Shown piece by piece: positions 1 to 34,956 of a stretch of DNA of 34,956 bases. Numbering within the stretch: the first letter of the stretch is position 1; each line of letters starts with the position of its first letter. Below the pieces are notes generated by a model. The model did no database searches. It saw only the letters and a list, made by a program, of their open reading frames with translations, and had not been told where the DNA came from. Source of the DNA: a virus; IMG/VR virus record IMGVR_UViG_3300009155_000017, positions 1 through 34,956 of that record; one strand, given 5' to 3'. The position numbers were made by a program, and so were the translations under genes.

Positions 1-123
1 AATGCGCCATATTGCAAAGCATCAGATTATGTAGTTATTTGGAACAACATTGCTGAATGGGCGGGTACGGCAGATTCATCAGAAACTAGGGCGTTAATTA
101 TTCATGGTTACAAAGATGCAATT
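1..123. repeat. Terminal direct repeat, left copy
   Basis: Bases 1-123 are identical to 34834-34956. A gene that starts at 34687 reads through the repeat and finishes at 141. The repeat is therefore the overlap of a circular map rather than a dispersed element. It could be an assembly overlap or a real terminal redundancy; the sequence alone cannot tell these apart. The unit length without the duplicate is 34,833 bp. Confidence 0.95.
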
Positions 124-141
124 GCGCGTGAAAAAAAATGA
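1..141 (+). CDS. Small secreted protein, C-terminal part (continues from 34687)
   Basis: This is the 3' part of a 95-residue protein whose start lies at 34687 on the other side of the circular join. The frame is open from base 1 to the TGA at 139-141. This portion (residues 50-95) is soluble and mixed in charge, with one cysteine, and ends in a Lys-rich tail. The stop overlaps the next start in an ATGA arrangement (ATG at 138), which suggests translational coupling to the following gene. The function is unknown; see the entry at 34687 for the signal peptide. Confidence 0.8.
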   Translation, partial: NAPYCKASDYVVIWNNIAEWAGTADSSETRALIIHGYKDAIAREKK

Positions 142-374
142 TAATCCCAAGCAAATGGTATCCAACCGTGCAAGCGCGGCATGATGTACAAACTGTAGCG
201 TTTGATAGGATGGTTAAGCGCGTACAAGAAGATTACGACAACGCGATAAAAGCGCATAAAGTTGAAACTGTTAATCACGAATTGGATGTAGAACTTTATA
301 ACAAGCGGGCGCGGGTTAACCAACTTGAATTAGAAATGTTTACTAACCGCCGTAGATTTCAGATTTTTGTTTAA
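138..374 (+). CDS. Small coiled-coil protein in the lysis cluster, unknown
   Basis: This 78-residue protein starts in an ATGA overlap with the preceding secreted protein. It is rich in charged residues and predicted helical from about residue 20 to 75, and has no membrane segment, cysteine pair or signal peptide. It ends 8 bp before the holin and so belongs to the lysis transcription unit. I do not recognise the family. A helper of lysis or a late small protein is possible, but nothing in the sequence proves it. Confidence 0.7.
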   Translation: MIIPSKWYPTVQARHDVQTVAFDRMVKRVQEDYDNAIKAHKVETVNHELDVELYNKRARVNQLELEMFTNRRRFQIFV

Positions 375-382
375 GGAACATT

Positions 383-898
383 ATGCTAACTTTACTTTCT
401 ACATTGATTTCTTTTCTGATGGGCGGCTTACCCAAGATTCTTGATTTCTTTCAAGATAAAGCCGATAAGTTACACGAACTGCAACTAGCGCGGTTGCAGA
501 TTGAACGCGAATTAGAAATGCGTAAATTGGGATTTGAAGCGCAAGAACGCGTAGAACATATTCGTAGTGAACAACTGGCAACCGAATCCGCGGCAAACAC
601 TACGCAAGCCCTGATAGGCGCACAACAAGCCGAAATGCAAGCCATTTACGCGCACGATACATTTTTAAATGAGGGTACATCGCAATGGATGCGTAACCTA
701 CGCGCATCGGTTCGCCCCGTCATTACCTATGGTTTCTTTTTCTTATTGTTGTTTGTTGATGTTGGCTTGTTTTCCTATGGTTGGCATAAGGGCGAAAACT
801 TTGAAACATTAGCCAATATGCTTTGGGATTCAGATACGCAAGCATTGTTTGCATCAATTATTGCTTTTCACTTTGGCGGCAGGGCGTTTGGAAAATGA
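383..898 (+). CDS. Holin, 3TM / GTA-type family
   Basis: This 171-residue membrane protein probably forms the holes that let the cytosolic endolysin reach the cell wall. A short hydrophobic N-terminus (about residues 2-16) is followed by a long charged helical or coiled-coil stretch (about 20-90). Two membrane segments follow at about 112-131 and 152-168, around a conserved-looking R-x-SVRPVITYGFF core and a C-terminal FHFGGRAFG. This order resembles the 'Holin of 3TMs, for gene-transfer release' family (PF11351). AAGGAA lies upstream of the ATG. The stop overlaps the ATG of the endolysin (895) by ATGA, the usual holin-endolysin pairing. The holin call rests on family resemblance plus context. 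Confidence 0.8.
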   Translation: MLTLLSTLISFLMGGLPKILDFFQDKADKLHELQLARLQIERELEMRKLGFEAQERVEHIRSEQLATESAANTTQALIGAQQAEMQAIYAHDTFLNEGTSQWMRNLRASVRPVITYGFFFLLLFVDVGLFSYGWHKGENFETLANMLWDSDTQALFASIIAFHFGGRAFGK

Positions 899-2800: not shown

Positions 2801-3346
2801 TTACAGTTTTGCCTTAACTTTATCTTTAACGGCAATCACTTTCTTTTGCCAATCAGCATTGCCATTGCAAGCGGCGTATGCGGCTTTATAGGCGGCTTTT
2901 AATTGTTCTTGGTCGGTTGATGCCTCAATAGCCGCAAAGTGGTCTACAAGCGCGTTTTCATCAATCATAGGTTTACGCACCGCGGCATTGCCATCGTCAT
3001 CTTCAGGGGCTTGCCCCGTAGCCGCCATTAATGAAGCCCTGCGGATATAAGTTAAGCAAGACATAAAACCTTGCGGGTCATGCTTGGGTGCGGGGAAGAA
3101 TAGTTTGCCGCAATCTAACCGTTCGCCTGATTCATGCAAAAAACTTGTTTCGCAAATAATGCCATCGATATGTTCTGAAGTTGTTTGAAACAGGAAAATA
3201 CCGTTGTTGTTTAGCGCGTCTATAACCGCGTCAACGCAAGAAGCAAGGTCGGCATAGCGGGATTTGAAATGCGGGTTTGTAGAGGTCTTTAAAGCAGGGC
3301 CAAACGCCTTTTGTGCTTTGACCAATGCGGTGGATAGATTTTTCAT
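2801..3346 (-). CDS. erf: ERF-family single-strand annealing protein
   Basis: This 181-residue recombination mediator belongs to the ERF superfamily (PF04404, prototype P22 Erf), which anneals complementary single strands and can circularise or repair phage DNA. Signature elements are NPHFKSRYADLASCVDAV near residue 25, then DPQGFMSCLTYIRRASLMAATG and the acidic APEDDDGNA. The C-terminal 60 residues are helical and variable, as is usual. ATGA overlap couples it to the upstream small gene. With the exonuclease at 2145 it forms a two-component recombination pair like Red or RecET. Confidence 0.92.
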   Translation of the reverse strand: MKNLSTALVKAQKAFGPALKTSTNPHFKSRYADLASCVDAVIDALNNNGIFLFQTTSEHIDGIICETSFLHESGERLDCGKLFFPAPKHDPQGFMSCLTYIRRASLMAATGQAPEDDDGNAAVRKPMIDENALVDHFAAIEASTDQEQLKAAYKAAYAACNGNADWQKKVIAVKDKVKAKL

Positions 3347-3534
3347 GTTGAACTTTCTAAATAGTTGGTAAGGCGTTTGATTCGGTCGGCATGGTAATCC
3401 GACATACGGCGGGCGTATTCCATTGCTGATTGAGCATCTAAGAAACGGCGTTTTGCTTCTTCAAGTTCTTTAGCCGCCATTTCTTTTGCTGATGGCATAC
3501 GCCACAAATCTTGAAAGCGATAAATTAATTTCAT
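3343..3534 (-). CDS. Small helical protein of the early operon, unknown
   Basis: A 63-residue protein, MKLIYRFQDLWRMPSAKEM and on, rich in Ala, Glu, Lys and Arg and likely to form one long coiled-coil helix. It contains AKELEEAKRRFLDAQSAMEYA and a C-terminal YHADRIKRL. I chose the ATG at 3534 because it sits two bases after the stop of the preceding small gene, downstream of GGCGGGG; upstream ATGs would overlap that gene fully. The stop overlaps the ERF start (ATGA). Similar short Glu/Arg-rich helical proteins occur in early regions of other phages, but I cannot assign a function. Confidence 0.75.
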   Translation of the reverse strand: MKLIYRFQDLWRMPSAKEMAAKELEEAKRRFLDAQSAMEYARRMSDYHADRIKRLTNYLESST

Positions 3535-3536
3535 GC

Positions 3537-3629
3537 TTAACCCCGCCATGCCAACATTACGCCCCAACCGCCAAAGATGACAATTGCTAAAGCACATTCA
3601 ATTAAAGTGGTGATAATTTTTTGTTTCAT
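3537..3629 (-). CDS. 30-residue single-pass membrane peptide
   Basis: This short open frame encodes MKQKIITTLIECALAIVIFG followed by GWGVMLAWRG. That is one hydrophobic helix with a basic N-terminus, like a small membrane peptide. The ribosome-binding site AAAGGA lies 7 bases before the ATG, better than those of several longer neighbours. Its stop lies 2 bases before the next ATG. Good signal plus tight packing make it a likely real gene even though it is very short. The function is unknown; an inhibitor of a host membrane process or a superinfection factor is possible. Confidence 0.6.
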   Translation of the reverse strand: MKQKIITTLIECALAIVIFGGWGVMLAWRG

Positions 3630-3645
3630 TGTTTTGTCCTTTGAT

Positions 3646-3661
3646 GGGGGACTAAGCCCCC
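3646..3661. terminator. Small GC hairpin (possible attenuator)
   Basis: GGGGG-ACTAAG-CCCCC forms a 5-bp stem between the first and second genes of the leftward operon. On the + strand a T-rich run follows (gcttgtttt); in the leftward transcript no U-run follows. It may act as a weak attenuator or mRNA end-stabiliser rather than a full terminator. Confidence 0.3.
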
Positions 3662-3668
3662 GCTTGTT

Positions 3669-3854
3669 TTATTTAAAGTTAAAACCTTTAGCAATTTCTA
3701 ATGCTTCTTGTTCAGTACGACCAAAGTACAAATGACCACTTTTGCCCTCAACGGCCCAATCATTAATGCCGTATTCAATTTGTTGGGAAAGGGTCAAGTC
3801 ATTAAAACTTGGGTTGTGAACTTCGTATGCTGAAAATTGATTTACATATTTCAT
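3669..3854 (-). CDS. First gene of leftward operon, unknown
   Basis: A 61-residue protein beginning MKYVNQFSAYEVHNPSFNDL. I use the ATG at 3854 because AGGAGA sits 8 bases upstream; the other ATGs are too close to or overlap that site. There is a mixed alpha/beta pattern and no membrane segment. It has GRTEQEALEIAKGF at the C-terminus, typical of small phage proteins that end in a helix. It is the promoter-proximal gene of the recombination operon, just downstream of operator 1. Early promoter-proximal genes often encode host-takeover or regulatory proteins, but nothing here proves that. Confidence 0.75.
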   Translation of the reverse strand: MKYVNQFSAYEVHNPSFNDLTLSQQIEYGINDWAVEGKSGHLYFGRTEQEALEIAKGFNFK

Positions 3855-3899
3855 TTGCATTTCTCCTATAAGACCCCAAGAAGTTCGGGGCATGGCTAG

Positions 3900-5245: not shown

Positions 5246-6070
5246 ATGAGCAACCCATACAAAATCATTGAACCAACTTGTATTAGTTTTTCAGGTGGTA
5301 GAACTTCTGCATATATGCTTTACAAAGTTTTAGAGGCTCACGATATGAACCTACCTGAAGATGCAGTTGTTTGTTTTGCTAATACAGGCAAAGAAGATGA
5401 AGCAACTTTGCGGTTTGTTAATAATTTTAGTAAAACTTGGAATGTTCATATAAATTGGCTTGAATGGGATTTAGTAGATGGAAAACCAACATTTAAAGTT
5501 GTCGATTTTGAATCAGCATCAAGAAATGGTGAACCGTTTGAAAAATGTATTTATTACTACAAAAAATTGCCTAATCCTGCTCAACGATGGTGTACAGGTC
5601 AATTAAAAATTAGAACAATACATCGTTACTTGCGAAGCCTTGGTTGGGAACACGATGAAAACGACAATAATGATTTTGTTGGTATTCGTGCTGATGAACC
5701 AAGACGCGCCGCAAAGATGAATAAAAGCAAATTACCACTTTATTTATCAGGAGTTACAAAAGAAACAATTAATCAATTTTGGGCTAATCAATCTTTTACT
5801 TTAGAACTGCAAATTCATCGCGGCGAATCTTTGCTTGGCAATTGTGACCTTTGTTTTTTAAAAAGCGTAGATAAAAAAGTAAACATTGCAAGATTGAATC
5901 CTGAAAAAGTTTTGTGGTGGGCAAAAATGGAGAGTGATGTTTTTCAAATGAGCAAAGAATCAACAGGATTTAACAAAGGTCATCCGTCTTATCGTGAATT
6001 GCATAATTTTTCAGCAAATCAAATGCAAATTTTTGACGACCAATCTATAGATTGTTTTTGCGGTGATTAA
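5246..6070 (+). CDS. PAPS-reductase-like PP-loop protein
   Basis: A 274-residue member of the phosphoadenosine phosphosulfate reductase family in the adenine nucleotide alpha-hydrolase fold. The PP-loop SGGRTS is at 16-21. RWCTGQLKI (Cys116), GIRADEPRR and GNCDLCFLKS (Cys200, Cys203) follow, and CFC (270-272) closes the protein. These cysteines could bind an iron-sulfur cluster, as in DndC-type relatives. The family includes sulfate assimilation CysH, DNA phosphorothioation DndC and phage versions of unknown role. No dnd or cys partner lies nearby. The gene is visibly AT-richer than its neighbours and uses AAA/AAT/TTT codons heavily, suggesting recent acquisition. AAAGGAAA precedes the ATG. 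The family call is strong; the substrate is unknown. Confidence 0.85.
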   Translation: MSNPYKIIEPTCISFSGGRTSAYMLYKVLEAHDMNLPEDAVVCFANTGKEDEATLRFVNNFSKTWNVHINWLEWDLVDGKPTFKVVDFESASRNGEPFEKCIYYYKKLPNPAQRWCTGQLKIRTIHRYLRSLGWEHDENDNNDFVGIRADEPRRAAKMNKSKLPLYLSGVTKETINQFWANQSFTLELQIHRGESLLGNCDLCFLKSVDKKVNIARLNPEKVLWWAKMESDVFQMSKESTGFNKGHPSYRELHNFSANQMQIFDDQSIDCFCGD

Positions 6071-7761: not shown

Positions 7762-8212
7762 ACGCACTAAACGCAAATTTTGGGCATTGTTAGACCCAAT
7801 TGCACATGGAATTGTTGGGGCTAGTTATACACCTAGACATTTGTTAGATAAATTGCGACTAAACGAATATGCCGCTTTGGAATCAATCACCAAAGGCAAC
7901 GGCACGATACAGGATTGGCGAACCCTAGTAGATGTGCTAAACCTTTCGGAAATGATGGCTAAAAACGGCGTTGGCCCTGAAGTGTTGCCCGTATGTCAAA
8001 AAGCCCAAGAAAGCCTACACAAAGCCGCTATACGCTACCAAAGCACCATGCAAATGGGATTAGATGGGGTTGGCATCCAAGCGGTGCGGGAATTACTGGA
8101 ATATGCCGATTTGCAACAGGGAAGCGTAACCCGCGCAGAATTTGAACGCTATGTGCAAAAAACAAGAAATTACATAAAATCAAACGGTAACTTAGTGGTA
8201 GAAATTGAATGA
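7754..8212 (+). CDS. Conserved-looking phage protein, unknown
   Basis: A 152-residue, mostly helical protein with a basic N-terminus ([19 protein letters not shown]) and a long mid helix (LVDVLNLSEMMAKNGVG). Its C-terminal part ends RAEFERYVQKTRNYIKSNGN. There is no membrane segment, cysteine cluster or nucleotide-binding motif. It lies before the HNH-type gene with an ATGA overlap. It looks like a family found in phages of Proteobacteria, but I can give no function. Confidence 0.7.
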   Translation: MRKRTKRKFWALLDPIAHGIVGASYTPRHLLDKLRLNEYAALESITKGNGTIQDWRTLVDVLNLSEMMAKNGVGPEVLPVCQKAQESLHKAAIRYQSTMQMGLDGVGIQAVRELLEYADLQQGSVTRAEFERYVQKTRNYIKSNGNLVVEIE

Positions 8213-8535
8213 GATTCCCAAAACACCAATACATCCGTAGTTCTGACTTATTACGCAACGCCCGTGAAATACCATGCCAACATTGCGGCGCAGACGATGG
8301 AACGGTAGTAGCCGCCCACACTAATTGGCAAGGGGGCAAGGGCCGCGGCATTCGTGCTGATGACAACCTAATTAGCAGTTTGTGTTATTCATGCCACATG
8401 GAAATAGACCAAGGCGGCAAACTGGATAAAGCCGAACGGCAAAAGATTTGGCTTGCCGCACATTTGAAAACGGTGCGAAAATTGCAAGAATACGGCTTAT
8501 GGCCTAATGATGTACCACTACCTGAAGGATTATGA
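8209..8535 (+). CDS. HNH-type nuclease, YbcO/DUF1364-like
   Basis: A 108-residue protein. The pattern is C-x-x-CGADDGTVVAAH, GKGRGIRADDNLISSLCYSC, then HMEIDQG: a CxxC pair, a central AAH histidine, N in DDN, and CxxCH. This is the beta-beta-alpha metal fold of HNH nucleases and resembles the lambdoid YbcO (DUF1364) type in length and in the ID-GG segment after the last His. Such proteins act on DNA ends or recombination intermediates. It is coupled by ATGA at both ends. Confidence 0.75.
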   Translation: MRFPKHQYIRSSDLLRNAREIPCQHCGADDGTVVAAHTNWQGGKGRGIRADDNLISSLCYSCHMEIDQGGKLDKAERQKIWLAAHLKTVRKLQEYGLWPNDVPLPEGL

Positions 8536-8930
8536 TGGTTAAATTTCGCGCTGAAGCCGCCCAAAACGACCCCGTAATGCAGTTTGTGCAATGCCTATTG
8601 CATAGCGTCACAAACGCCCATATTCTGCATTTCCAAACGCCTAGTTTCTCCGAACACATGGCATTAGGTACTTTTTACAATGAAGTTGGCGAATTGGTCG
8701 ATAACTTTGTAGAGGCGTTCCAAGGCAAATACGGGTTACTTACCAAGTACCAAGCCGAATACGAATTGCCCGCAACAGACCCCGTTGTTTATTTAACCTA
8801 CCTGAAAGATGAAGTAGCAACCCTACGCCGTGCGCCTAACTTTCCACAGGATAGCGAACTTCAAAACGAAGTAGATAACATTGCTAACCTTATCAATAGC
8901 ACCCTTTACAAACTACGATTCCTAAGTTGA
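8532..8930 (+). CDS. Helical, ferritin-like-looking protein (DUF5856-like)
   Basis: A 132-residue protein of long helices. The segment TNAHILHFQTPSFSEHMALG, then FYNEVGELVDNFVEAFQG recalls the His/Glu-spaced helices of Dps/ferritin-like proteins and the phage family DUF5856. Possible metal ligands are the His residues in AHILHF and EH and the Glu residues in NEVGE. If right, it might sequester iron or protect DNA. The match is from memory of the pattern and should be treated as tentative. Confidence 0.6.
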   Translation: MMVKFRAEAAQNDPVMQFVQCLLHSVTNAHILHFQTPSFSEHMALGTFYNEVGELVDNFVEAFQGKYGLLTKYQAEYELPATDPVVYLTYLKDEVATLRRAPNFPQDSELQNEVDNIANLINSTLYKLRFLS

Positions 8931-9484: not shown

Positions 9485-9502
9485 TAAGCCTTTTGGTTTC
9501 AA

Positions 9503-9618: not shown

Positions 9619-9990
9619 ATGAAAAAAGCACCCAAACAAATTATTGCGTTTTTGCGTAATCCAAGCACTTGGAACGCCGATGCGTTTGAAACCGCCATCA
9701 GGAACGAAGTGGAAAATTCAACGGGTGCGTTAACTGCATCTGATGAACTGCTAATTGGTTCTTTGGTTTTGGTGGTGGAAACTTTGGTTAAGGCGCACAT
9801 TGGATTATTGGAACATGGCGCGATTTACCACTACAACGCGGGCGATGCACCTAGCCCGTATTACAAGATAAGAACCGAATCAATGGACAAAGCGATAAAG
9901 ATTCTTGCCGAACTAGCATTAGTGGCAAGGGGTCGCCCAAAGATTAAGAATAAGGCATCCGAAGTAGATGAGTTATTCGCAACTGCTTGA
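9619..9990 (+). CDS. Terminase small subunit, P27-like
   Basis: A 123-residue protein before TerL and overlapping it by 23 bases. The helical body LTASDELLIGSLVLVVETLV, then a loop with GDAPSPYY, then SMDKAIKILAELALVARGRPK follows the P27-type small terminase outline (LT-x-x-D ... G ... NP ... LG-x-x-P). It should bind the packaging start site and recruit TerL. A three-codon upstream frame (9611-9622) overlaps its ATG as ATGA. The RBS is weak. Function is inferred from position and pattern. Confidence 0.72.
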   Translation: MKKAPKQIIAFLRNPSTWNADAFETAIRNEVENSTGALTASDELLIGSLVLVVETLVKAHIGLLEHGAIYHYNAGDAPSPYYKIRTESMDKAIKILAELALVARGRPKIKNKASEVDELFATA

Positions 9991-11647
9991 ACCCGCTTTT
10001 CAATACGCTAGGGGCGTAACCCTTGGCGACATTACCGCTTGCGAAGATGTAAGGTTAGCCGCCCAACGATTCCTAGATATGGTGGAACGGCGGGATGCGC
10101 CTTATGAATTTGTACCCGAAAAAGCCGAACACATTTTAAAGTTTGCCAAGTTCTGCCGCCATGTTAAAGGTGCGGAAGCGGGCAAGCCTATCCAACTGCA
10201 ACCGTTTCAGATTTTGTTTCTAGCCGCCGTTTATGGGTTTAGGAATAGAAAAGATAAAACGATTCGTTGGGTAACTGATGTAATTTTGTTTGTGCCGCGT
10301 AAATCAGGCAAGACAACTTTGGCATCAATCATTGCACTTTACGAATTACAGTTTGGGGATGCGGGCGCGGAAGTTTTTACTTTGGCGACCAACCGCGAAC
10401 AGGCAAGTATTTGCTTTGATTCATCTAAAGCCATCATTGAAAATATGGTGCATGAGTTTCAACAAAAGTTTGTTGTTTACCGAAGCGAACTAAAGAAAGC
10501 GGGTGATTCCACTTCTACTTACCGTGCGCTATCCCGTGATAATAGAAAAACAGGCGATGGTAAAAACCCATCGTGCGCGATGATTGATGAAGCGGCGCAG
10601 ATTACCGAAAGGTCATCTATTGAAGTTTTGCATAGCGGTATGGGTGCGCGTAAGAACCCTTTGCGTATGTACCTAACTACCGCATCGTTTACCCGCGAAA
10701 CCAAGTTCTACGAAGATTTAAACCATTTACGCACGGTGCTACGCGGCACGGCAGAAGATAACTACCGATGGTTTGGTTTACTGTATTCCATCGATGCGGG
10801 TGATGAATGGTCAAACGAAGAAACTTGGGCTAAAGCCAACCCTATGCTTGGCATATCGGTTACTACCGAACACATAAGGCACATGGCGCACGAAGCGCAA
10901 TCTAAGCCCGCAAGCCTTAACGAATTTCTTTGTAAGCAACTGAACATCTATGTAAGCGCAAATAGCGCGTGGGTCGATAGAAGGTATTGGGATGATTCAG
11001 TTTTCCCTATGCCCGAAGATAAACCCGAATCAACTTTTATTGCGTTTGACTTGGCATATAGCCGCGACTTGAACGCCGTATGCACTTTGCACCGATATTC
11101 GGAAGAAAAGTTCTTTGCAGAATTTCAATTTTTCTTACCCGAAGAAAGTTTAGACCTAATCCCCAATCACTATAAATCTATCTTTCTACAAGCCCATGCA
11201 AGCGGCATATTGCGGCTAACGCAAGGCAATGTAACCGACCTTAACGAAGTGGAAACCTACATTAAGCAACAATGTATTAAGCACAATGTTAAAGAAATCG
11301 GCTACGACCCGTACAACGCCGCGTCATTGGTTGCTAATTTGTATTCCGAGGGTTTACCCGTAAAGAAGGTTGGGCAGGGAATGGCGGTTCTATCTAACCC
11401 ATCTAAAACCGCAGAACAATTGATTTTGAAAAAAGGCATTATGCACGATGGCAACCCGTTTGTTGGTTGGCAACTAGGCAACGCCGAAGTTTATACGGAT
11501 GTAAATGGAAATGTGAAAGTTCGCAAGAATGAAGCCGATACATCCGCAAAAGTTGACGGAATTATTGCAATGATTATGGCTTTGCATTGCCATCTAGACA
11601 ATGTTTTTGTTTCTGATACATTTGGGTTTAGAAGTTTTGAATGGTAA
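9968..11647 (+). CDS. terL: Terminase large subunit (HK97-type)
   Basis: This 559-residue packaging motor pumps DNA into the prohead and cuts it. The ATPase part shows Walker A VPRKSGKTT (109-117) and Walker B CAMIDEA with catalytic Glu208; SGMGARKNPLRMYLTTAS follows as the coupling motif. The nuclease part has FIAFDLAYSRDLNAV (Asp361), EIGYDPYNA (Asp447) and KVDGIIA (Asp about 527), the three acidic residues of the RNaseH-like fold. Length is normal for Terminase_1/HK97 large subunits. The HNH gene upstream suggests cos-type cutting. Confidence 0.95.
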   Translation: MSYSQLLEPAFQYARGVTLGDITACEDVRLAAQRFLDMVERRDAPYEFVPEKAEHILKFAKFCRHVKGAEAGKPIQLQPFQILFLAAVYGFRNRKDKTIRWVTDVILFVPRKSGKTTLASIIALYELQFGDAGAEVFTLATNREQASICFDSSKAIIENMVHEFQQKFVVYRSELKKAGDSTSTYRALSRDNRKTGDGKNPSCAMIDEAAQITERSSIEVLHSGMGARKNPLRMYLTTASFTRETKFYEDLNHLRTVLRGTAEDNYRWFGLLYSIDAGDEWSNEETWAKANPMLGISVTTEHIRHMAHEAQSKPASLNEFLCKQLNIYVSANSAWVDRRYWDDSVFPMPEDKPESTFIAFDLAYSRDLNAVCTLHRYSEEKFFAEFQFFLPEESLDLIPNHYKSIFLQAHASGILRLTQGNVTDLNEVETYIKQQCIKHNVKEIGYDPYNAASLVANLYSEGLPVKKVGQGMAVLSNPSKTAEQLILKKGIMHDGNPFVGWQLGNAEVYTDVNGNVKVRKNEADTSAKVDGIIAMIMALHCHLDNVFVSDTFGFRSFEW

Positions 11648-13992: not shown

Positions 13993-15339
13993 ATGTCACA
14001 AGCAATCATTGAAAAACTGGATGCTATCGAAGCCAAGCAAAGCGAAAGCATTGCCGCCGTAGAAGCAAAAATTCCCGCCGCCGTTGAAGCGATTAAAAAC
14101 GAAATGCAAGAAACTATTGCCGCTTTGGAAGCCAAAGTAGCATCGATTCAAGCACCCGCCGTTATCAAGCCCGCTAAGACTGTTCGCCAAGATGTGAACC
14201 GTTCTGTTAAGGAACAACTTTCTTCTTTCTACAAAAGCAATTCCCGCGTAGAAAAAGAACTGCAAATTTTTGCTGACGAAAGCCAACGCGATGCGTATAT
14301 GCTTGAGGCATCAGCATTGACAGGTTCAGGTAACAATCAAGGTGGTCGCACCGCTTATGACCCCGTGTTTGCCGCTTTGCGTTTGGCTAACCCCATGCGC
14401 GGTTTGTCACGCACCGTTGCTACTGATGGTTCTTCTTATCAATTCCGTGTCAAAACTGGTAATGCGGGTGCGGCATGGGGCTACACCATTCAAAACAATG
14501 GCGCGGCTACAACTGAAGATACAACTATTTGGCAATTGGTTCTGCAAGACCTGAATGTTCAATTCCCAATCCGTACTGCGGCTTTGGATGACATTGATGG
14601 TTTGGAAGCCAATGTTGTTGACGATATGTTGATGGAGTTTTCACAAAGTGAAGCCCTTTCAATGGTTCAAAACAACGACCAAGCGGCACAATCAGCAACT
14701 AACCCCTACGGCGGTACAAATGGCTTGCGCGGTTTAGACCAATACGCGGGTGCTAACGCTACCTATGCGGGTGGTACTTGCACTACTGCGGCATTTGGTT
14801 CTAGCGGTACTGGTTCATCAAGCGGTTTGCATAGCCTTGCTACTTATGACCAATTGACCACTAACGCTAACACCGTTGGCGCAAACAATATTACTTATAA
14901 CGATGTAATCAATACGATTTATCAGTTGCCACAACAATATTGGACACCATCAACAAAGTTCATGATTAACCCAATTTTGTTGAACGCGATTCGTGCATTG
15001 AAGGATAACAACGGCGCACCTATCTTCAACCGTAACGAAGGTTTGTCAGTTGAGGGTATCGTAGGTCAATTGTTGGGCTTTGATGTTGTCGTAAACAAGT
15101 ATTGCGATACACCATCGCAAACAACGGCAGGTTCTGCGGCTACAACAAGTTTGTACCCAATGTACTTTGGTGATTTCACACGCGGTCACACAATCATTGA
15201 CCGTTTGAACATGATTATGCGTAGATACGACCAAACTGCCCCAGGCTTTATCACATTCTTTGGTGAAAAGCGTTTGGCAACATCGGTTCGTGACCCTAAC
15301 GCATTGGTGCGTTACCGTTCAACTGGAACTGCTACCTAA
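13993..15339 (+). CDS. Major capsid protein 1 (HK97 fold) with N-terminal scaffold
   Basis: A 448-residue HK97-fold capsid protein. Residues 1-100 are an acidic coiled-coil (AIEAKQSESIAAVEAKIPAA ...) acting as the delta scaffold domain that the protease would remove, probably near EASALTGSG (105). The shell part contains FAALRLANPMRGLSR, FRVKTGNAGAAWGYT, FPIRTAALDDIDGLEANVVD (E-loop/P-domain region) and a C-terminal MRRYDQTAPGFITFFGEKR. A strong terminator follows, so this gene is probably made in large excess over those downstream. It is paralogous to the next gene. Confidence 0.95.
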   Translation: MSQAIIEKLDAIEAKQSESIAAVEAKIPAAVEAIKNEMQETIAALEAKVASIQAPAVIKPAKTVRQDVNRSVKEQLSSFYKSNSRVEKELQIFADESQRDAYMLEASALTGSGNNQGGRTAYDPVFAALRLANPMRGLSRTVATDGSSYQFRVKTGNAGAAWGYTIQNNGAATTEDTTIWQLVLQDLNVQFPIRTAALDDIDGLEANVVDDMLMEFSQSEALSMVQNNDQAAQSATNPYGGTNGLRGLDQYAGANATYAGGTCTTAAFGSSGTGSSSGLHSLATYDQLTTNANTVGANNITYNDVINTIYQLPQQYWTPSTKFMINPILLNAIRALKDNNGAPIFNRNEGLSVEGIVGQLLGFDVVVNKYCDTPSQTTAGSAATTSLYPMYFGDFTRGHTIIDRLNMIMRRYDQTAPGFITFFGEKRLATSVRDPNALVRYRSTGTAT

Positions 15340-15400: not shown

Positions 15401-16417
15401 ATGACTATCACCGAAAAAATCTTGAACGGAATCAAACAAGCCATCACCGAAGGCGGCAAAGTAAACATCGATTTGCGTGAAGCAAGCGCGATTACTGGTT
15501 CGGGTTCGGGTGTCGGTGGTAATGTTGTTTTTGATGATGCGTTTGCGGCTTTGCGTCAAGCAAACCCTTTGCGTCAAGGCTCACGCCAAATCGCGGTTAA
15601 AGGCTCTGATGCCCAATTCGTTGCCAAAACTGGTAACGCCGCAAATTCTACAAACCCTTGGGGTTATACATTTACGCCTGATAGCGGTTCGCCTAATGTC
15701 AATACTTCTATTTGGCAATTACCCGTGCGCGTATTGGTTGCACAATTGCCAATCAGAACGGCGGTGCTAAGTGATGTTAATGGACTTGATGCAACACTTG
15801 TTGAAGATTTGGCACTTGAGTTTGCACAACTTGAAGGTCAATCAATGGTGCTTAACAATGACCAAGCGGGTAGCACAACTACATCAACTGGTGCTACTAG
15901 CGGTTTGCGCGGTTTGGATAGTTACACTAGCGGGGCTAGTAGTGCTTTTGGTACTAGCGGCACGGCTATCACAAATGGTATTCATACTATCGCTACGGTT
16001 AGCAATGGCGGCACTACGGTAACTTATAACAAAGTGGTCAACATGGCTAACGCCTTGCCCCCGCAATATTGGTCGCTAGATTCAACTGCTTGGCACATTA
16101 GCCCTGCTATGATTCAAACATTGCGCCAATTAAAAGATACGGCGGGTTTGCCTTTGTTTTTAGAACTAGGCGAAAAAGATGGTTGCGCGATTGGTCACAT
16201 TTTTGGTTGGCCTGTTATCCCGAACGCATACCTTTCCGCAGATTTCCCAATCTACTTGGCAAACTGGAATCGCTTTTTAACAATCGGCGACACCGAACAA
16301 ATGAGCATCCAAATGTTTGAACAAACACAGGCGGGTTTTGTAACGATGTACGCCGAAAAGCGTATGGTAAGCACCGTGCGCGACCCGTTCGCGGGTGTTC
16401 GTATGAGTGCCGCCTAA
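15401..16417 (+). CDS. Second major-capsid-like protein without scaffold domain
   Basis: A 338-residue paralogue of capsid protein 1, aligned from REASAITGSG (residue 26) onward: FAALRQANPLRQGSR, FVAKTGNA...NPWGYT, TSIWQLPVRVLVAQLPIRTA, LDATLVEDLALEFAQLEGQS, NNDQAG, SGLRGLD. It keeps the HK97-fold landmarks but its N-terminus is only about 26 residues, so it lacks the long delta coiled-coil. It may co-assemble as a minor shell component or form special vertices. AGGA precedes ATG 15401; an earlier in-frame ATG inside the first gene is not used. Confidence 0.9.
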   Translation: MTITEKILNGIKQAITEGGKVNIDLREASAITGSGSGVGGNVVFDDAFAALRQANPLRQGSRQIAVKGSDAQFVAKTGNAANSTNPWGYTFTPDSGSPNVNTSIWQLPVRVLVAQLPIRTAVLSDVNGLDATLVEDLALEFAQLEGQSMVLNNDQAGSTTTSTGATSGLRGLDSYTSGASSAFGTSGTAITNGIHTIATVSNGGTTVTYNKVVNMANALPPQYWSLDSTAWHISPAMIQTLRQLKDTAGLPLFLELGEKDGCAIGHIFGWPVIPNAYLSADFPIYLANWNRFLTIGDTEQMSIQMFEQTQAGFVTMYAEKRMVSTVRDPFAGVRMSAA

Positions 16418-28079: not shown

Positions 28080-28568
28080 ATGGCGATTTTCAATAAGAAC
28101 ACCCTTGCACAAGTAAGCGGGTTCGACAACCCCATTCTTGCGGGTGAATTGGTATGGAATCAGAAAACCTACTGGAATCTGACATTCACCAATTCCGCTA
28201 ATGGTTTGCCCGTTGATTTAACAGGCGCAACCCTTAACGCCCAAATTGTTCGCCGCGAACTATCAAACATTATTGATACGCGTAATGGTCTAACTTTTGA
28301 CATTGCCGATTACAATCCCGCGCCCGCCGCTATTCCATTAACGATTACTAACATTGTTGCCGCCGCGGGTTCATGCACATTGGTAATTGATGCTAGTGCA
28401 TGGTCTCTAATGAGCAATGACCCCGAATTAGAAATTAACGCCGTTGACCCCGTGGGTTACTCAGGTCGCGTTAAGGTTAGTTTTCCCGTATCGGGTTCAA
28501 CCCCTGCGGATGATTCAATTATTTTTTTGTTGTTCTTGGTGCGTAGCGATGGGGTGATTGTTTTATGA
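28080..28568 (+). CDS. Baseplate/fibre-linked beta protein (BppU-like)
   Basis: A 162-residue beta-sandwich-like protein: [40 protein letters not shown] and [20 protein letters not shown]. The DLTG-x-x-x-x-A-x-I pattern followed by strand pairs resembles the N-terminal domain of BppU-type baseplate upper proteins, which anchor receptor-binding proteins. AGGGA precedes the ATG and its stop overlaps the collagen-like gene by ATGA, so the two are likely translated and assembled together. Confidence 0.65.
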
Positions 28569-30670
28569 GCAACATTAAAGTTTCCGTACAAGATGGCAAC
28601 AATGTAAACCTACAAGTAACGCCGCAACCTCGTATTGATTTGCGAATTGATAGGGCAATTAGCGGTGCTACAGGGCCTACTGGCCCGCAGGGAAATCAAG
28701 GGCCTACGGGCGCAACTGGCCCTACGGGTGCTACGGGTGCGCCAAGCACGGTGCAAGGTCCTACAGGGCCTACAGGCGCAACAGGGCCTACTGGTGCAAC
28801 TGGTGCGCCATCTACGGTTCAAGGTCCTACGGGGGCTACAGGACCTACAGGCGCACAGGGTACACAAGGTGTAGTAGGGCCAACTGGCCCGCAAGGCATA
28901 CAGGGTATCCAAGGTGTTCAGGGCATCCAAGGCGTTACAGGCCCAACAGGGGCGCAAGGTGCTACAGGCAATACTGGTGCGACAGGACCAACGGGCGCAA
29001 GCGGCGTTAACGGAAGTACAGGACCTACGGGCGCGATTGGCCCGACAGGGGCACAAGGTATTCAAGGTAATGTAGGTGCAACTGGCCCGCAAGGTTTGCA
29101 AGGCAATGTTGGCGCACAAGGCCCGACAGGCCCAACGGGAACGCAAGGTAATGTTGGCCCAACGGGAAGTAATGGCGCACAAGGCCCAACGGGTGCTACT
29201 GGTGCGGCATCTACCGTAGCAGGGCCTACTGGTCCTACAGGAACGCAGGGTATCCAAGGCAATGCAGGGCCTACAGGTCCACAAGGTATCCAAGGCGACC
29301 AAGGTATTCAGGGTGTACAAGGTATTGCAGGGCCTACGGGTTCGCAAGGTGCGGTAGGCGCGACAGGCCCAACGGGCGCACAAGGTTTAACAGGACCTAC
29401 GGGCGTTGCGGGTGCAACAGGGCCTACAGGGGCAACGGGCGCGGCATCTACAGTAGCAGGACCAACAGGACCGACAGGCGCACAAGGCGCAGATGGTCAA
29501 TCATCATCGTATTACCCATATCAAGCCGATACAAATCAAACATCAGGAACGCCTACATCGGGTCATGTGTATTGGGATAACGCTACTCAAACATCTGCAA
29601 CCAATCTTACATTTAGCCATCTGACAAGCAACGGCATTGATGTTGATTTGTTCTTGGGATTCTTGAAAACTGGCGATAGCGTCATTTTGCAAGATGCAAA
29701 TAATTCAAACAATTACCAAAAATGGATATTAACTGCTAACCCAACAGTAGTACCCAATAGTTCAATTACTTGCCCCGTTACTTTGTCAACATCTAGCGGC
29801 ACGGGTACAACTGGTTTTGCTAACAATCACAATTTAATTGCCGTTATTCAATCTATTGGCGTAGTGGGGGCAACAGGCCCAACAGGGCCAACGGGCGCGG
29901 CAAGCACCGTAGCAGGGCCTACGGGGGCGCAAGGCGCAACTGGCCCAACTGGAACGCAAGGTGCAGTAGGACCAACTGGACCTACAGGGGCGCAAGGCAA
30001 TACAGGCCCAACTGGTAGCCAAGGTGTTCAGGGCGTGGTAGGACCGACAGGGCCACAGGGCATACAGGGCGACCAAGGTATTCAAGGAATTCAGGGCGTA
30101 GCAGGGCCTACGGGCGCACAAGGCATCCAAGGCGTGACAGGCCCAACAGGTGCAGATTCAACCGTTGCAGGGCCAACAGGACCGCAAGGCAATGTAGGTA
30201 CAACTGGACCAACGGGCGCACAGGGAACGCAAGGCGTGGTTGGGCCAACAGGACCGCAGGGCATCCAAGGCGTACAGGGTATCCAAGGCCCTACAGGACC
30301 GCAAGGCGATACGGGCGCACAAGGTAATGTCGGGCCAACAGGACCTACGGGCAGTACAGGCGCACAAGGCGTTCAAGGCCCGACTGGACCAACAGGCACA
30401 CAGGGAATTCAAGGCAATGTAGGCCCGACAGGACCGCAGGGCATACAGGGAATTCAAGGTGTTCAAGGCGTTGTAGGCCCAACGGGGGCAACTGGTAATA
30501 CAGGCCCGACAGGCACGGTTGTTTACGGCGTGGTTGTTCCTAACTTGGATACTGCAACAAGCAATGTTTCAATTACTGCGGGTTACAACGCCGCATCGGT
30601 TGGGCCGATTACCGTGAACACGGGCGTTACCATTACCGTTGCAACTGGTCAACGATGGATTGTTTCTTAA
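28565..30670 (+). CDS. Collagen-like tail fibre protein
   Basis: A 701-residue protein with an N-terminal domain (1-30), a first G-x-y block (about 31-312), a globular domain (about 313-435, containing [20 protein letters not shown]) and a second G-x-y block (about 436-650). A C-terminal cap ends [11 protein letters not shown]. The repeats are mostly Gly-Pro-Thr, Gly-Ala-Thr, Gly-Ile-Gln and Gly-Val-Gln, with [13 protein letters not shown] modules recurring. The repeats should form trimeric collagen-like rods. Long near-identical DNA repeats make it a hotspot for slippage, so length may vary between isolates. ATGA-coupled to the BppU-like gene. Confidence 0.9.
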
Positions 30671-30685: not shown

Positions 30686-31465
30686 ATGACAGTTATTATT
30701 AACGGAAGTAACACCCCGACCGCGGGCGCGGTAGCGGTTGGCGATGGCACAACTTTAAACTTTACTGCGGCGGGTACTGCGGGACAAGTTTTAACAAGCA
30801 ACGGCGCGGCAGTACCAACATGGACTGATAACGGTTCGGGAACTGTTACAAGCGCATCCGTTGTTTCTGCAAATGGTTTTGCGGGTACTGTAGCCACTTC
30901 AACGACAACCCCTGCAATTACGCTAACCACAAGCATTACGGGCGTTATTAAAGGTAATGGTACTGCGCTATCAGCGGCTACTGCGGGAACTGATTACCTT
31001 GCGCCCCCAAGCGGTACGGCATTGTTAAAAGCCAATTCAGGCGGTGCATTAGCAAATGCGGTTGCGGGTACAGATTATGTAACCCCTACAGGCACGGAAA
31101 CGCTAACAAACAAAACGCTAACAAATCCAACTGTTACTAATTATGTTGAAACACTTAACGCAATTGGAACTGTTACATCATCTAGCACATTGTCGTTAAC
31201 TGGTGGAACTGTACAAACCGCAACATTAACTGCTTCAACTGCTTGCACATTCACAATGCCAACTGCTACTGCGGGCAAATCGTTTGTATTGCTATTAAAA
31301 CAAGCGGCATCTACTGGCAATGGAACTGCAACATTTACAGGCGTTAAATGGGGAACATCAGGCGCACCAACAATTACGGCGGCGGCGGGCAAGATGGACA
31401 TTTTGACTTTTATTGCTGATGGAACAAATTGGTACGGAAGCATTGCCCAAGGTTATACACCATAA
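30686..31465 (+). CDS. Tail fibre / beta-helix-like protein
   Basis: A 259-residue Gly/Thr/Ala-rich beta protein. Motif GVIKGNGTALSAATAGTDYL APP, SGTALLKANSGGALANAVAG-TDYVTPTGTETLTNKTLTNPT is typical of phage tail fibres and of trimeric beta-helix tails. The C-terminal part (TMPTATAGKSFVLLLKQAAS ... ADGTNWYGSIAQGYTP) looks like a tip domain. AAAGGAAA precedes the ATG. Probably a receptor-binding fibre piece that works with the collagen-like protein. Confidence 0.78.
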   Translation: MTVIINGSNTPTAGAVAVGDGTTLNFTAAGTAGQVLTSNGAAVPTWTDNGSGTVTSASVVSANGFAGTVATSTTTPAITLTTSITGVIKGNGTALSAATAGTDYLAPPSGTALLKANSGGALANAVAGTDYVTPTGTETLTNKTLTNPTVTNYVETLNAIGTVTSSSTLSLTGGTVQTATLTASTACTFTMPTATAGKSFVLLLKQAASTGNGTATFTGVKWGTSGAPTITAAAGKMDILTFIADGTNWYGSIAQGYTP

Positions 31466-31475
31466 GGATTTCACA

Positions 31476-32297
31476 ATGTTTGCTTTTACTAAATTGATGT
31501 TGGCAATGTCGAGTGGAATTACCCTTGATTATCTTGTTGTTGCGGGTGGCGGTGGAGGTGGAACAAATCATGGCGGCGGTGCGGGTGCGGGTGGTTTTAG
31601 AACGGGGTCAACTACTGTTACTGGCTCATTTACTGTAACTGTAGGTGCGGGGGGAACTGTAAGTGCAAGTTCCCCTTACGGGCAAAATGGAAACGATTCT
31701 GTTTTTAGTTCAATTACTTCTGCGGGTGGCGGCGCAGGTGCAAACAATGTAGCAACTGGTGGCGAAGCGGGAAGCAATGGCGGTTCAGGTGGCGGAACAA
31801 GAAATAACTCTTCTGGAGGAGGTGTTGGTAACACGCCATCTACATCCCCATCTCAAGGCAATGATGGCGGTTTAGGTAGTGGTTCTAATGCGGGCGGCGG
31901 CGGCGGCGCAGGGCAAGTTGGTCAAACTGGTGCTACTGGCGCGGGCGGCAATGGAACTGCTTCAAGTATTTCAGGTTCTTCAGTAACTTATGCGGGCGGT
32001 GGCGGCGGCGGTGGAACTGGTTCAGGTACAACATCAGGTGGTTCAGGCGGCGGCGGCAATGGCTCTAAAGATAGCACTGGCTCAGCAGGAACAGCAAATC
32101 GCGGGGGCGGAGGCGGAGGCGGTTCAGCGGGCGGTAATGCTGGTGGCGCTGGTGGTTCAGGTATTGTTATTCTTGCTTATTCATCAGCACTACCTGATTT
32201 AACATCTATCGGTGGGGGCTTGACTTACGCTAAAACTACTTCGGGTGGAAAAACCATTTACACATTCACTGCGGGTACAGGAACAGTTACTGTTTAA
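31476..32297 (+). CDS. Glycine-rich receptor-binding (adhesin-like) protein
   Basis: A 273-residue protein with a short start (MFAFTKLMLAMSSGITLDYL), then VVAGGGGGG-x-NHGGGAGAGGF and repeated glycine tracts (AGGGGGAGQ, GGGGGGGTG, RGGGGGGGS) that recall the polyglycine sandwich of T4-type gp38 adhesins and the Gly-rich phage domain (PF21722). The end (GGLTYAKTTSGGKTIYTFTA) is a beta hairpin tip. TAAGGATTTCACA before ATG 31476 gives the ribosome-binding site; the longer start at 31413 lies inside the previous gene. It probably contacts the host receptor. Confidence 0.8.
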   Translation: MFAFTKLMLAMSSGITLDYLVVAGGGGGGTNHGGGAGAGGFRTGSTTVTGSFTVTVGAGGTVSASSPYGQNGNDSVFSSITSAGGGAGANNVATGGEAGSNGGSGGGTRNNSSGGGVGNTPSTSPSQGNDGGLGSGSNAGGGGGAGQVGQTGATGAGGNGTASSISGSSVTYAGGGGGGGTGSGTTSGGSGGGGNGSKDSTGSAGTANRGGGGGGGSAGGNAGGAGGSGIVILAYSSALPDLTSIGGGLTYAKTTSGGKTIYTFTAGTGTVTV

Positions 32298-32693: not shown

Positions 32694-33806
32694 ATGACAA
32701 GAAAACTCAAGATAGCAGTTTACGCAATCAGCAAAAACGAAGAAGAATTTGTAAATCGTTTTTGCGATTCGGCTAAAGATGCCGACATTATCTTAATTGC
32801 CGATACTGGTTCTACTGACAGAACGGTAGAACTTGCAATAGAAAACGGCGCGGTAGTTCACAACATTTGCATTAGCCCTTGGCGGTTTGATAAAGCGCGT
32901 GATACCGCCCTAGCCTTGTTGCCGCGTGATATTGATGTTTGCATTTCGCTAGACCTTGATGAAGTTCTGATGAATGGTTGGCGCGAAGAAATTGAACGCG
33001 TTTGGCAAGAAAACACTACGCGCCTACGATACAAATTTGATTGGGGTTGCGGCATCAGTTTTTTCTACGAAAAAATCCATCACCGTAGTGGCTACCATTG
33101 GCATCATCCCGTACACGAATATCCCCGCCCTGATGGTCGCATTACGGAAATTTACGCGCATACCGATATGCTATTGGTTAAGCATTTGCCCGACAATACA
33201 AAATCCCGCGGGCAATATATGCCTTTGCTTGATTTAGCAGTTAAAGAAGATGCAAGATGCCCGCGCAATGCGTTTTACCGTTCGCGTGAATTAACTTTCT
33301 ATGCGCGTTGGCAAGAAGCAATCGTAGCCTTAAACAATTACCTTGCAATGCCCGAAGCCACTTGGCAAAACGAACGATGCTATGCAATGCGTTTGTTAGG
33401 TAAGGCGCATGAAGAACTAGGGCAATCCGTAGAAGCGCATAAGTGGTATCGCCTAGCCATTGCTGAAGCACCTAACACCCGCGAACCTTGGTGCGAACTG
33501 GCGATGTTCTGCTACCGCCGTAGCCTTTGGGTTGAATGTTATTCTGCGGCGAAATCAGCACTTGAAATAAAAGATAAACAATTGGTGTACACAATGAACC
33601 CTGAAGTTTGGGGCGCACAACCTTGGGATTTAGGTAGCATTTCGGCATGGCATCTTGGGCTAAAAGAAGAAGCCACACAACTTTTACAAGAAGCCATAAA
33701 ATTAGCCCCCGATGACCAAAGATTGCGAAACAATATGCAATTTATGGATGCCGATTACAAAACCTTTGATAAGGTCGAAAATGCCGACACCGTTAGAAGC
33801 CCATGA
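32694..33806 (+). CDS. Family 2-type glycosyltransferase with TPR-like C-terminus
   Basis: A 370-residue protein. The N-terminal KIAVYAISKNEEEFVNRFCD ... ILIADTGSTDRTVELA ... ISLDLDEVLMNGWREEI is the GT-A fold of GT2 enzymes, with DLDEVL as the DxD-type metal site. The C-terminal half is helical repeat (HEELGQSVEAHKWYRLAIAE, LKEEATQLLQEAIKLAPDDQ) in TPR style, suitable for protein binding. It may decorate virion proteins such as the collagen-like fibre, or alter host surface sugars. The acceptor is unknown. It is the last gene of the fibre group. Confidence 0.82.
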   Translation: MTRKLKIAVYAISKNEEEFVNRFCDSAKDADIILIADTGSTDRTVELAIENGAVVHNICISPWRFDKARDTALALLPRDIDVCISLDLDEVLMNGWREEIERVWQENTTRLRYKFDWGCGISFFYEKIHHRSGYHWHHPVHEYPRPDGRITEIYAHTDMLLVKHLPDNTKSRGQYMPLLDLAVKEDARCPRNAFYRSRELTFYARWQEAIVALNNYLAMPEATWQNERCYAMRLLGKAHEELGQSVEAHKWYRLAIAEAPNTREPWCELAMFCYRRSLWVECYSAAKSALEIKDKQLVYTMNPEVWGAQPWDLGSISAWHLGLKEEATQLLQEAIKLAPDDQRLRNNMQFMDADYKTFDKVENADTVRSP

Positions 33807-33942
33807 AGAAATATGCACATTGCGTTATGAAATGCTTTGTGCGCGTATTAAGCGTTTAGAAGGCATCATTATTAAGGCTTGCGGGGCTATGTTGTTTGGC
33901 ATGGCGGGCGTTGTTTATTCATCTTTGATACACTTAAAGTAA
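33781..33942 (+). CDS. Small coiled-coil plus membrane-segment protein (XhlA-like)
   Basis: A 53-residue protein overlapping the glycosyltransferase end by 26 bases. The N-terminal half is a charged helix (LRYEMLCARIKRLEGIIIK) and the C-terminal half one membrane helix (GAMLFGMAGVVYSSLI). This arrangement resembles XhlA/haemolysin-like lysis accessories. It may anchor or modulate lysis with the 3TM holin. The call rests on topology. Confidence 0.6.
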   Translation: MPTPLEAHEEICTLRYEMLCARIKRLEGIIIKACGAMLFGMAGVVYSSLIHLK

Positions 33943-33958
33943 TGAATAAGGGCTTGGT

Positions 33959-34690
33959 ATGGTCACGGCTAAGAAAACCGCTAAAACACCCGTTAAAGCC
34001 CCTGCAAAGGTAGCCGCCGTTAAGCGTTCGACCCCAAAACCTAAACCCGCGCCTGAACCTAAACCCGAACCCAAACACGAACCTAAAAATCAAACCAATG
34101 TTGACAAAATTATTGGCTTGATTGAATGGGTTGATAACCCGTTTAAATTGTTTACGGTAATCCTTTTATCGTTTCTTTTCTTTGCGGGTTACTTTGCTTG
34201 GGATTCGCGGCAAGTAATCCTACAGGCGATTACAACGCAAGATAAGATGCCGCAACTGGCAAAGCAAGAAGATTTAATCCCGCCCGCACAATCATTGATG
34301 AAAGATGTTGATGGGTTGATTTTGTTGGTTCACAAAGCAAACTTAGCAAGCAATTCCCGCACAACCGTTTTAGCCTTAAATGCCGATGGAACGCGTGAAA
34401 AGAAAATAGAAGGCACGGTTACATCATTGTTTAACGCAAGCGCAGATAGAAATAGCGCAATGGTTGCGATGCTGAACGGCGAAGTTCTATGCGAAGAATT
34501 TAACCCGTCATCTAAGGTTGGTGAATGGGGTGTTAAGCAAGGCGTTAAGTTTATGTGCCGCGGTAGCATCCCGCCCGACATGGGTAAGTTTGCGGGTTAT
34601 GTTGCCATTGGGTTTAAAGAAAAAATAGAAGATATTGCCGCGCTTAAAACGCGAATCAATCTAGCCGCAACGGATATGGCGCATGAATGA
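33959..34690 (+). CDS. Membrane protein with Lys/Pro/Ala-rich N-terminus, unknown
   Basis: A 243-residue protein. Residues 1-45 are highly basic and Pro/Ala rich (KKTAKTPVKAPAKVAAVKRS, then repeated KPEPK), like a histone-H1-type tail. Residues about 63-80 form one membrane helix (FTVILLSFLFFAGYFAW). The rest is a soluble domain with Cys in VLCEEF and FMCRGS, a possible disulfide. A basic inside and a folded outside suggests an N-in inner-membrane protein with a periplasmic domain. AAGGG lies before the ATG. It may take part in lysis control or superinfection exclusion, but this is only a guess. Confidence 0.65.
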   Translation: MVTAKKTAKTPVKAPAKVAAVKRSTPKPKPAPEPKPEPKHEPKNQTNVDKIIGLIEWVDNPFKLFTVILLSFLFFAGYFAWDSRQVILQAITTQDKMPQLAKQEDLIPPAQSLMKDVDGLILLVHKANLASNSRTTVLALNADGTREKKIEGTVTSLFNASADRNSAMVAMLNGEVLCEEFNPSSKVGEWGVKQGVKFMCRGSIPPDMGKFAGYVAIGFKEKIEDIAALKTRINLAATDMAHE

Positions 34691-34956
34691 AGTGGCTTAT
34701 ACTTTTATTTGCGTTGGTGATTGCGGGTGCGGTCGCCAAAGATGGATGCCATGTGCGCGAATTTTACGGCATTGGTTACACAATTCACAATCCATCAGAA
34801 CGCCATCAACAAATGATTCAATGGCTAAAAAACAATGCGCCATATTGCAAAGCATCAGATTATGTAGTTATTTGGAACAACATTGCTGAATGGGCGGGTA
34901 CGGCAGATTCATCAGAAACTAGGGCGTTAATTATTCATGGTTACAAAGATGCAATT
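34687..34956 (+). CDS. Small secreted protein, N-terminal part (continues at 1-141)
   Basis: Starts in an ATGA overlap with the membrane protein gene. MKWLILLFALVIAGAVAKDG is a good signal peptide with an AVA-K cleavage site; there is no lipobox. The mature protein of about 77 residues has two cysteines (CHVREF and YCKAS) that could form a disulfide in the periplasm. It runs off the window end and is completed at 1-141, total 95 residues. Being secreted and next to holin/endolysin genes, it could be a lysis or envelope protein. No family is recognised. Confidence 0.8.
   Translation, partial: MKWLILLFALVIAGAVAKDGCHVREFYGIGYTIHNPSERHQQMIQWLKNNAPYCKASDYVVIWNNIAEWAGTADSSETRALIIHGYKDAI
34834..34956. 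repeat. Terminal direct repeat, right copy
   Basis: Identical to bases 1-123. Reading the 5' part of the secreted-protein gene into base 124 onward gives one intact frame. Confidence 0.95.

Follow-up and report, generated by a model that had tools for sequence, protein, structure and literature searches.

That phages avoid restriction sites is knowledge decades old, and most of it concerns the silent loss of single sites. In the available part of Rusinov et al. 2018 (PMC6286503), elimination is reported for 7.1% of the type II cases, each a pair of a phage and a site, and for hardly any of the other types. The accessible part of the BASEL study (PMC8594841) ties site numbers to sensitivity, and that of Shaw et al. 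2023 (PMC10359461) ties the avoidance of 6-bp palindromes, not of 4-bp ones, to plasmid host range; PMC12195039 and PMC12143481, in the portions available, were of no help on restriction. Here, we analyzed the 34,956 nucleotides of IMG/VR virus record IMGVR_UViG_3300009155_000017, which we call the window; it is the entire record and has the gene content of a tailed phage. The window lacks, or nearly lacks, 18 non-nested palindromic specificities and has kept a single Pro-Gly dipeptide. This very probably reflects an extreme form of restriction-site avoidance, in which many host type II systems from several strains or species led to the loss of their sites and Pro-Gly was sacrificed.

Counting each of the 16 palindromic tetramers exactly gave zero for GATC, AGCT, ACGT and CCGG across the 34,956 bases, bearing out an earlier note on this DNA that had reported all four as wholly absent. 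The same note put the chance expectation at about 100-140 copies of each. Base composition predicts 132 for GATC, AGCT and ACGT and 85 for CCGG, and an order-1 Markov model gives 54, 87, 125 and 116, respectively, somewhat fewer than claimed, yet tens of copies each. Dinucleotide shuffles held 55.9 ± 7.1 GATC sites. When synonymous codons were shuffled so as to preserve both the proteins and the codon usage (200 rounds, 36 open reading frames [ORFs]), mean counts were 77 for GATC (lowest 60), 80 for AGCT (59), 88 for ACGT (65) and 76 for CCGG (56), against an observed count of 0 for all four. The ORFs used here and, apart from the count over 47 curated ORFs, in the dipeptide tests below were picked by length, and this set represents the second capsid gene of the window by two out-of-frame ORFs. 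All 120 non-palindromic tetramer pairs are present, and among 23 records the window alone has zero of all four palindromes. GGCC (56), TCGA (25), GTAC (110), CATG (103), GCGC (208), CTAG (68) and TGCA (170) are present, as the note had also said, some of them only in certain contexts: CATG never occurs as RCATGY, and GCGC occurs once as RGCGCY.

Four sites turned out to be too few, longer and degenerate ones having been overlooked. We scored a palindromic REBASE specificity (Biopython set, expectation of at least 15) as eliminated when its observed/expected ratio fell below 0.1. By this measure, 29 of 86 testable specificities are eliminated in the window, 18 of them non-nested, a number that counts partly overlapping specificities and not enzymes. 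On the same non-nested count, lambda scores 3, T7 scores 4, Mu and Nostoc N1 (the first 40,000 of 64,960 bases) score 5 each, KHP30 scores 6 and Methylophilaceae phage P19250A scores 7; the related record G002 reaches 23, so the window is surpassed within its own group. Besides the four tetramers, the eliminated sites of the window include, with observed and expected counts, 1/101 for CCNGG, 0/104 for GGNNCC, 0/76 for GCWGC, 0/55 for RCATGY, 1/56 for GDGCHC, 0/48 for YGGCCR, 2/46 for CASTG, 1/38 for RGCGCY, 0/37 for CGWCG and 0/26 for GRCGYC.

The edges of these motifs are sharp. At a W/S position, GCWGC (0/76) is missing and GCSGC (200/100) abundant, and CGWCG (0/37) stands against CGSCG (110/79); conversely, CASTG (2/46) is nearly gone and CAWTG (172/124) is not. 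The R/Y edge separates YGGCCR (0/48) from RGGCCY (26/28). GCSGC behaves as though it were written in place of GCWGC: relative to codon shuffles it is raised in phages lacking GCWGC (173 vs 87 in the window, 253 vs 153 in the relative G008) and not raised where GCWGC is present (59 vs 59 in G013, 40 vs 60 in G014). As a separate observation, the trinucleotide CTC/GAG stands at 0.24 of expectation in the window (101 vs 424, both strands), which known four- to six-base sites do not explain.

We then compared the window with its relatives. Of the named phages, P19250A (KX815270.1) alone has a DNA match covering 80% or more of the stretch from terminase to portal. Its terminase is 60% identical to that of the window at the amino-acid level, and the two phages share the order terminase, portal, next gene, capsid and second capsid; by related terminase and shared head-gene order, the window is P19250A-like. 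Both lack ACGT, and P19250A also lacks GGCC and CCSGG. Unlike the window, P19250A retains GATC (109% of expectation) and AGCT (118%), has a GC content of 35% (window, 44%) and shows only 7 non-nested eliminations. Being without ACGT and GGCC and nearly without CTNAG (3 vs 124 expected), P19250A may have a host that carries such systems. In IMG/VR, 176 stretches have a related terminase, of which the best 80 (82-99% identical) were fetched; 48 of these 80 loci form, with the window and P19250A, the 50 rows of a terminase tree. G012 was covered for 40,000 of 40,942 bases and G020 in part. The six longest records with terminases 97-99% identical to that of the window measure 36.5-38.7 kb, and the window may miss a small, uncounted part of the genome.

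Close relatives avoid different subsets of sites, motif by motif. Nine records with terminases 97-99% identical to that of the window avoid GATC, AGCT, ACGT, CCGG, GCWGC, RGCGCY and GGNNCC, nearly always at less than 13% of expectation (the exceptions are ACGT at 25% in G003 and CCGG at 21% in G017). G008 (terminase 93%) lacks AGCT, ACGT and GCWGC and holds GATC at 120%, CCGG at 100% and GGCC at 89%; G019 (94%) lacks AGCT and ACGT, with GATC at 83%. At 83% terminase identity, G021 lacks GATC and ACGT but reaches 112% for AGCT and 136% for CCGG, and G013 has all four tetramers at 74-95%. The least number of changes on the 50-row tree is 4 for GATC, 2 for AGCT, 4 for ACGT, 3 for CCGG, 6 for GGCC, 3 for GCWGC, 1 for CCWGG, 3 each for GGNNCC, RGCGCY and CASTG, 7 for YGGCCR and 0 for CGWCG and GGYRCC; these counts pool gains and losses, and partial loci leave some states uncertain. 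Because close relatives differ in this way, neither composition nor assembly can explain the avoidance.

Avoidance also reaches the proteins. Proline is encoded by CCN and glycine by GGN, so Pro-Gly always writes CCNGG, which is either CCWGG or a word containing CCGG, and Gly-Pro always writes GGNCC. The window holds one CCNGG, where dinucleotide shuffles predict about 99 over all frames, and its proteome accordingly has a single Pro-Gly, which lies within the capsid motif DQTAPGFITF; because there is only one CCNGG, this count is independent of gene calling. Over 47 curated ORFs, protein composition predicts 29.5 Pro-Gly outside the collagen-like protein, and 1 was observed (Poisson, 5e-12); a preset rule likewise excluded collagen-like proteins from the other dipeptide tests. 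Of 386 dipeptides, Pro-Gly falls furthest below its level in six outgroup relatives (log2 -3.83, standard deviation 0.39), followed by Ser-His at -1.55. Pro-Gly occurs in at least one of seven outgroup relatives at 32 window positions, of which the window retains it at 1; for 14 other dipeptides, retention amounts to 288 of 763 positions (Fisher, 1.4e-5). The most frequent replacements of Pro-Gly are Ala-Gly (9) and Pro-Ser (5). The second capsid protein illustrates the change: it ends in xPGF in G008, P19250A and each of the 7 outgroup records, and in QAGF or QVGF in the window and in those 12 double-avoiding kin where the motif was located.

The codons chosen at Pro-Gly follow the half of CCNGG that is avoided. 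Records that avoid only CCWGG (G011-G016 and G021) keep 14-26 Pro-Gly, 139 of 142 spelled with CCC or CCG, codons that make up 16-32% of their other proline codons. P19250A, which lacks CCSGG, spells 14 of 14 with CCA or CCT, as does G008 for all 7 of its Pro-Gly, having no CCSGG and little CCWGG. Where CCWGG is missing and CCGG stands at 5-26% (G006, G007, G010 and G019), 2-4 Pro-Gly remain, all with CCC. Each of the nine closest kin, avoiders of CCWGG and CCGG alike, has one Pro-Gly, at the same place in the capsid (G003 gains a second once all ORFs are counted). The spelling of this site is CCAGG in part of them and either CCCGG or CCGGG in the rest, and it is the sole CCGG of the record in G002 and G005.

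A comparable constraint applies to the reverse dipeptide. GGNCC, and thus GGCC too, looks to be avoided in the window wherever the protein permits: 73 of 76 coding GGNCC sites are forced by Gly-Pro, 57 of them in the collagen-like fibre protein. Likewise, Gly-Pro codon pairs contain 49 of the 54 GGCC sites in coding sequence. Kin with GGNCC at 12-15% (G001, G002, G005 and G017) have, collagen-like proteins aside, 5-10 Gly-Pro where 19-33 are expected, and 5-12 when all ORFs are counted.

We propose that this lineage encounters many type II systems, most likely spread across several host strains or species, and that each common specificity would select against its own site until none remain. 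The majority of sites would be lost through synonymous change; where no synonym is available the protein would change, and selection against CCWGG together with CCGG would remove every Pro-Gly but the one in the major capsid protein. Sister lineages would face different host repertoires and come to avoid different subsets, and sites would return in blocks through gene exchange, chiefly in fibre genes. Restriction would then be the selecting force behind the observed counts, the motif edges, the switching and the way in which codons and amino acids are chosen together, several hosts its source, and fibre exchange a means of restoring sites. That type II restriction selects here, as the earlier note had suggested, is well supported by the enzyme-like motif edges, the on/off switching among relatives and the codon-shuffle controls. 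We also consider it likely that enzymes shaped the proteome, two specificities that cover all spellings of a dipeptide nearly forbidding it except where the capsid needs it, and that the avoided set corresponds to the host restriction repertoire. A single CCNGG may be tolerable to the phage; enzymes such as EcoRII require two sites.

Some residual sites are grouped. CCGG is clustered in G001 (14 of 15 within 18.8-20.7 kb) and G007 (30 of 32 within 19.3-23.1 kb), a pattern that the acquisition of a block from a phage without CCGG avoidance would produce. In the window, the located remnants of CASTG, RGCGCY, CCAGA and GDGCHC all lie in fibre genes, at 29.0-32.3 kb.

We further investigated modification genes. 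Pfam matched 27 families in window proteins, including DUF968 (DUF, domain of unknown function) and PAPS_reduct, and recognized no methyltransferase family among the 47 proteins, in agreement with the earlier note; an own methyltransferase behind the tolerance of restriction was thus not recognized. PADLOC assigned one protein to SspD (1.6e-15) and one to DndC (8e-4), presumably the PAPS-reductase-like protein in both cases; these matches hint at chemistry of the phosphorothioation family, so the window may carry an unfamiliar modification. The further suggestion that avoidance replaces modification was not borne out as a simple trade-off. Mom-like genes occur in G006 (3224-3886), G007 (31519-32232), G010 (8198-8851) and the partial loci L014 and L024, and all of these avoid many sites. 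An N6_N4_Mtase-like gene is found in G008 (9212-10225; L097) and in no other record of the set; G008 has normal GATC and CCGG, lacks AGCT, ACGT and GCWGC, and likewise avoids many sites. Among relatives, Pfam was run on 58 proteins of G008, G010 and G013, and Mom was sought elsewhere with the Mu protein as the sole query.

Several observations weigh against avoidance driven by many enzymes, or against parts of it. Residual ACGT is scattered in G001, G002 and G005, so not all remnants are clustered. Over the 386 dipeptides, the number of free codon pairs relates only weakly to dipeptide loss (Spearman 0.09, p 0.07); Gly-Pro is kept at 12 of 32 window positions, like other dipeptides, and its loss does not appear in the position test; and the loss of Pro-Gly is common to one clade, so that few events may underlie it. 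Non-palindromic words, for which published avoidance is rare, are eliminated as well (CAGCC 0/57, CGGAC 0/35, CGTCC 0/35 and GCTCC 0/33). Six-base palindromes stand at 33-72% of expectation in 23 of 23 records, avoiders of few tetramers included; because they are low throughout the group, the hexamer signal is partly a general trait and no proof of single enzymes. Finally, candidate-genome searches found neither a host nor a matching restriction enzyme, and RE_NgoBV, which we take to be a GGNNCC-type endonuclease, was absent from 57 candidate genomes, in a search whose control was empty as well.

The host search centered on the family to which genome G678 belongs. The terminase alignment yielded three loci at 60% identity in genome bins; the order of one of them holds one strong HxlA genome, alone in its family. 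The 57-genome family of G678 is probably Methylophilaceae, because three members carry two close HxlA copies, genomes measure 1.1-3.6 Mb, fragment GC is 0.35-0.52, and a methenyl-H4MPT cyclohydrolase adjoins one locus. The nearest named phage, P19250A, infects a Methylophilaceae strain. Nothing links the window to this family: no related terminase was found in the 57 genomes at E 1e-60, and fragment composition singled out no host (45 of 60 fragments, those below 8 kb dropped), the dinucleotide distance of candidate-host fragments being 0.044 for P19250A and at best 0.110 for the window, a better fit to P19250A. C5 methyltransferases occur in 18 of the 57 genomes, at most three per genome. Beside them, Pfam (50 of 85 ORFs) recognized MvaI_BcnI twice and RE_Eco47II once, presumably of CCWGG/CCSGG and GGNCC type, respectively; NCBIfam and PADLOC, run on 10 neighbor ORFs, gave BbrUII/HgiDII-like matches below the curated cut-off and type II endonuclease matches. 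In the same probable Methylophilaceae family, the genome fragment L178 (from G690) has GGCC at 5%, GTAC at 9%, GCGC at 8% and CGCG at 0% of expectation.

A single host species with an unusually large type II set, in place of several hosts or strains with few each, is a possibility we hold to be the less probable: it would also give many eliminations together, and close kin do share most of the set, but kin with 93-99% identical terminases differ in GATC, CCGG, GCWGC, RGCGCY and YGGCCR, which suggests a shifting repertoire. Helicobacter, the host of KHP30, is rich in restriction systems, and KHP30 has only 6 non-nested eliminations. Neither point is decisive. That the phage DNA shuns palindromes or hairpins as such, with no particular enzymes involved, is unlikely. 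This reading draws on the low six-base palindromes described above and on the absence from the window of 25 of 45 testable ones, compared with 163 of 1916 non-palindromes, and may account for part of the hexamer signal. It is insufficient for the tetramers, which switch between relatives; GTAC, CTAG, CGCG, GCGC, GANTC and GTNAC stand at 100-137% of expectation, the W/S and R/Y edges are sharp, and non-palindromic words are lost too. The window thus shows no palindrome avoidance regardless of enzyme specificity, except in part at six bases.

An independent cause for the loss of Pro-Gly, with the low CCNGG count as its consequence, is very unlikely. Sharing across the clade would fit such a loss, since few events may underlie it, but CCNGG is missing in all frames, codon choice at the Pro-Gly that relatives retain tracks the avoided half of the motif, and Pro-Gly alone stands far out among the dipeptides. 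An origin in codon usage, composition, assembly or library preparation has a negligible chance of being correct. Codon usage is biased, as the low CTC/GAG count attests, but synonymous shuffles keep on the order of 56-110 copies per tetramer and never reach zero, ruling out codon bias or composition alone; an assembly artefact is ruled out by the recurrence of the same absences in independent IMG/VR records while other relatives hold the sites. Avoidance of the sites of many type II enzymes remains the explanation we favor.

Features to which these results refer are listed in Table 1. The window further encodes a portal, a prohead protease, a tape measure protein, a phage lysozyme, a YqaJ exonuclease, an ERF annealing protein and an HNH endonuclease; a search for transfer RNA genes found none. 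The two capsid-family genes adjoin each other, in the same order as in P19250A.

Table 1. Window features discussed in the text, with their positions
Feature	Position	Strand	Remark
PAPS-reductase-like protein	5246..6070	+	phrog_424; matches lambda Nin290
Terminase large subunit	9968..11647	+	query for relatives and basis of the tree
Major capsid protein, Phage_capsid family	13993..15339	+	retains Pro-Gly
Sole CCNGG of the window (CCAGG)	15241..15245	+	codes the only Pro-Gly of the proteome; close kin keep CCNGG there too
Second capsid-family protein	15401..16417	+	reads TQAGF, compared with xPGF in outgroup relatives
Collagen-like fibre protein	28565..30670	+	57 Gly-Pro pairs, each imposing GGNCC; sole GDGCHC at 29049
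Glycine-rich fibre protein	31413..32297	+	residual CASTG at 32075 and 32267, RGCGCY at 32145, CCAGA at 31812

Avoidance itself is already established; what is new here is its breadth, its combinatorial switching and its amino-acid cost. In this phage group, about 18 non-nested specificities have been eliminated at once without a recognized methyltransferase, and the on/off pattern among close relatives could record the restriction systems met by a host population. The amino-acid cost makes a prediction, namely that elimination of CCWGG and CCGG entails loss of Pro-Gly and that elimination of GGNCC entails loss of Gly-Pro, so that the shaping of phage proteins by defense can be tested by counting. 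Among the literature matches listed, which mostly leave subscription journals uncovered, no paper, judged by its title and the opening of its abstract, describes dipeptide loss by restriction avoidance, a weak sign of novelty.

Besides P19250A, two described cases come closest. One is the restriction-site elimination in dsDNA phages of Rusinov et al. 2018 (PMC6286503). Our example, T7 with GATC, resembles the window in having palindromic type II sites at less than one-tenth of expectation and no recognized methyltransferase. By our counts, T7 has 4 non-nested eliminations and the window 18 in 35 kb, and the window adds an amino-acid cost and the loss of non-palindromic words. The small broad-host-range plasmids of PMC10359461, as far as its accessible part describes them, likewise avoid 6-bp palindromes, as small elements without methyltransferases of their own; there, the link to host range holds for 6-bp sites only, whereas the window eliminates 4-bp sites outright.

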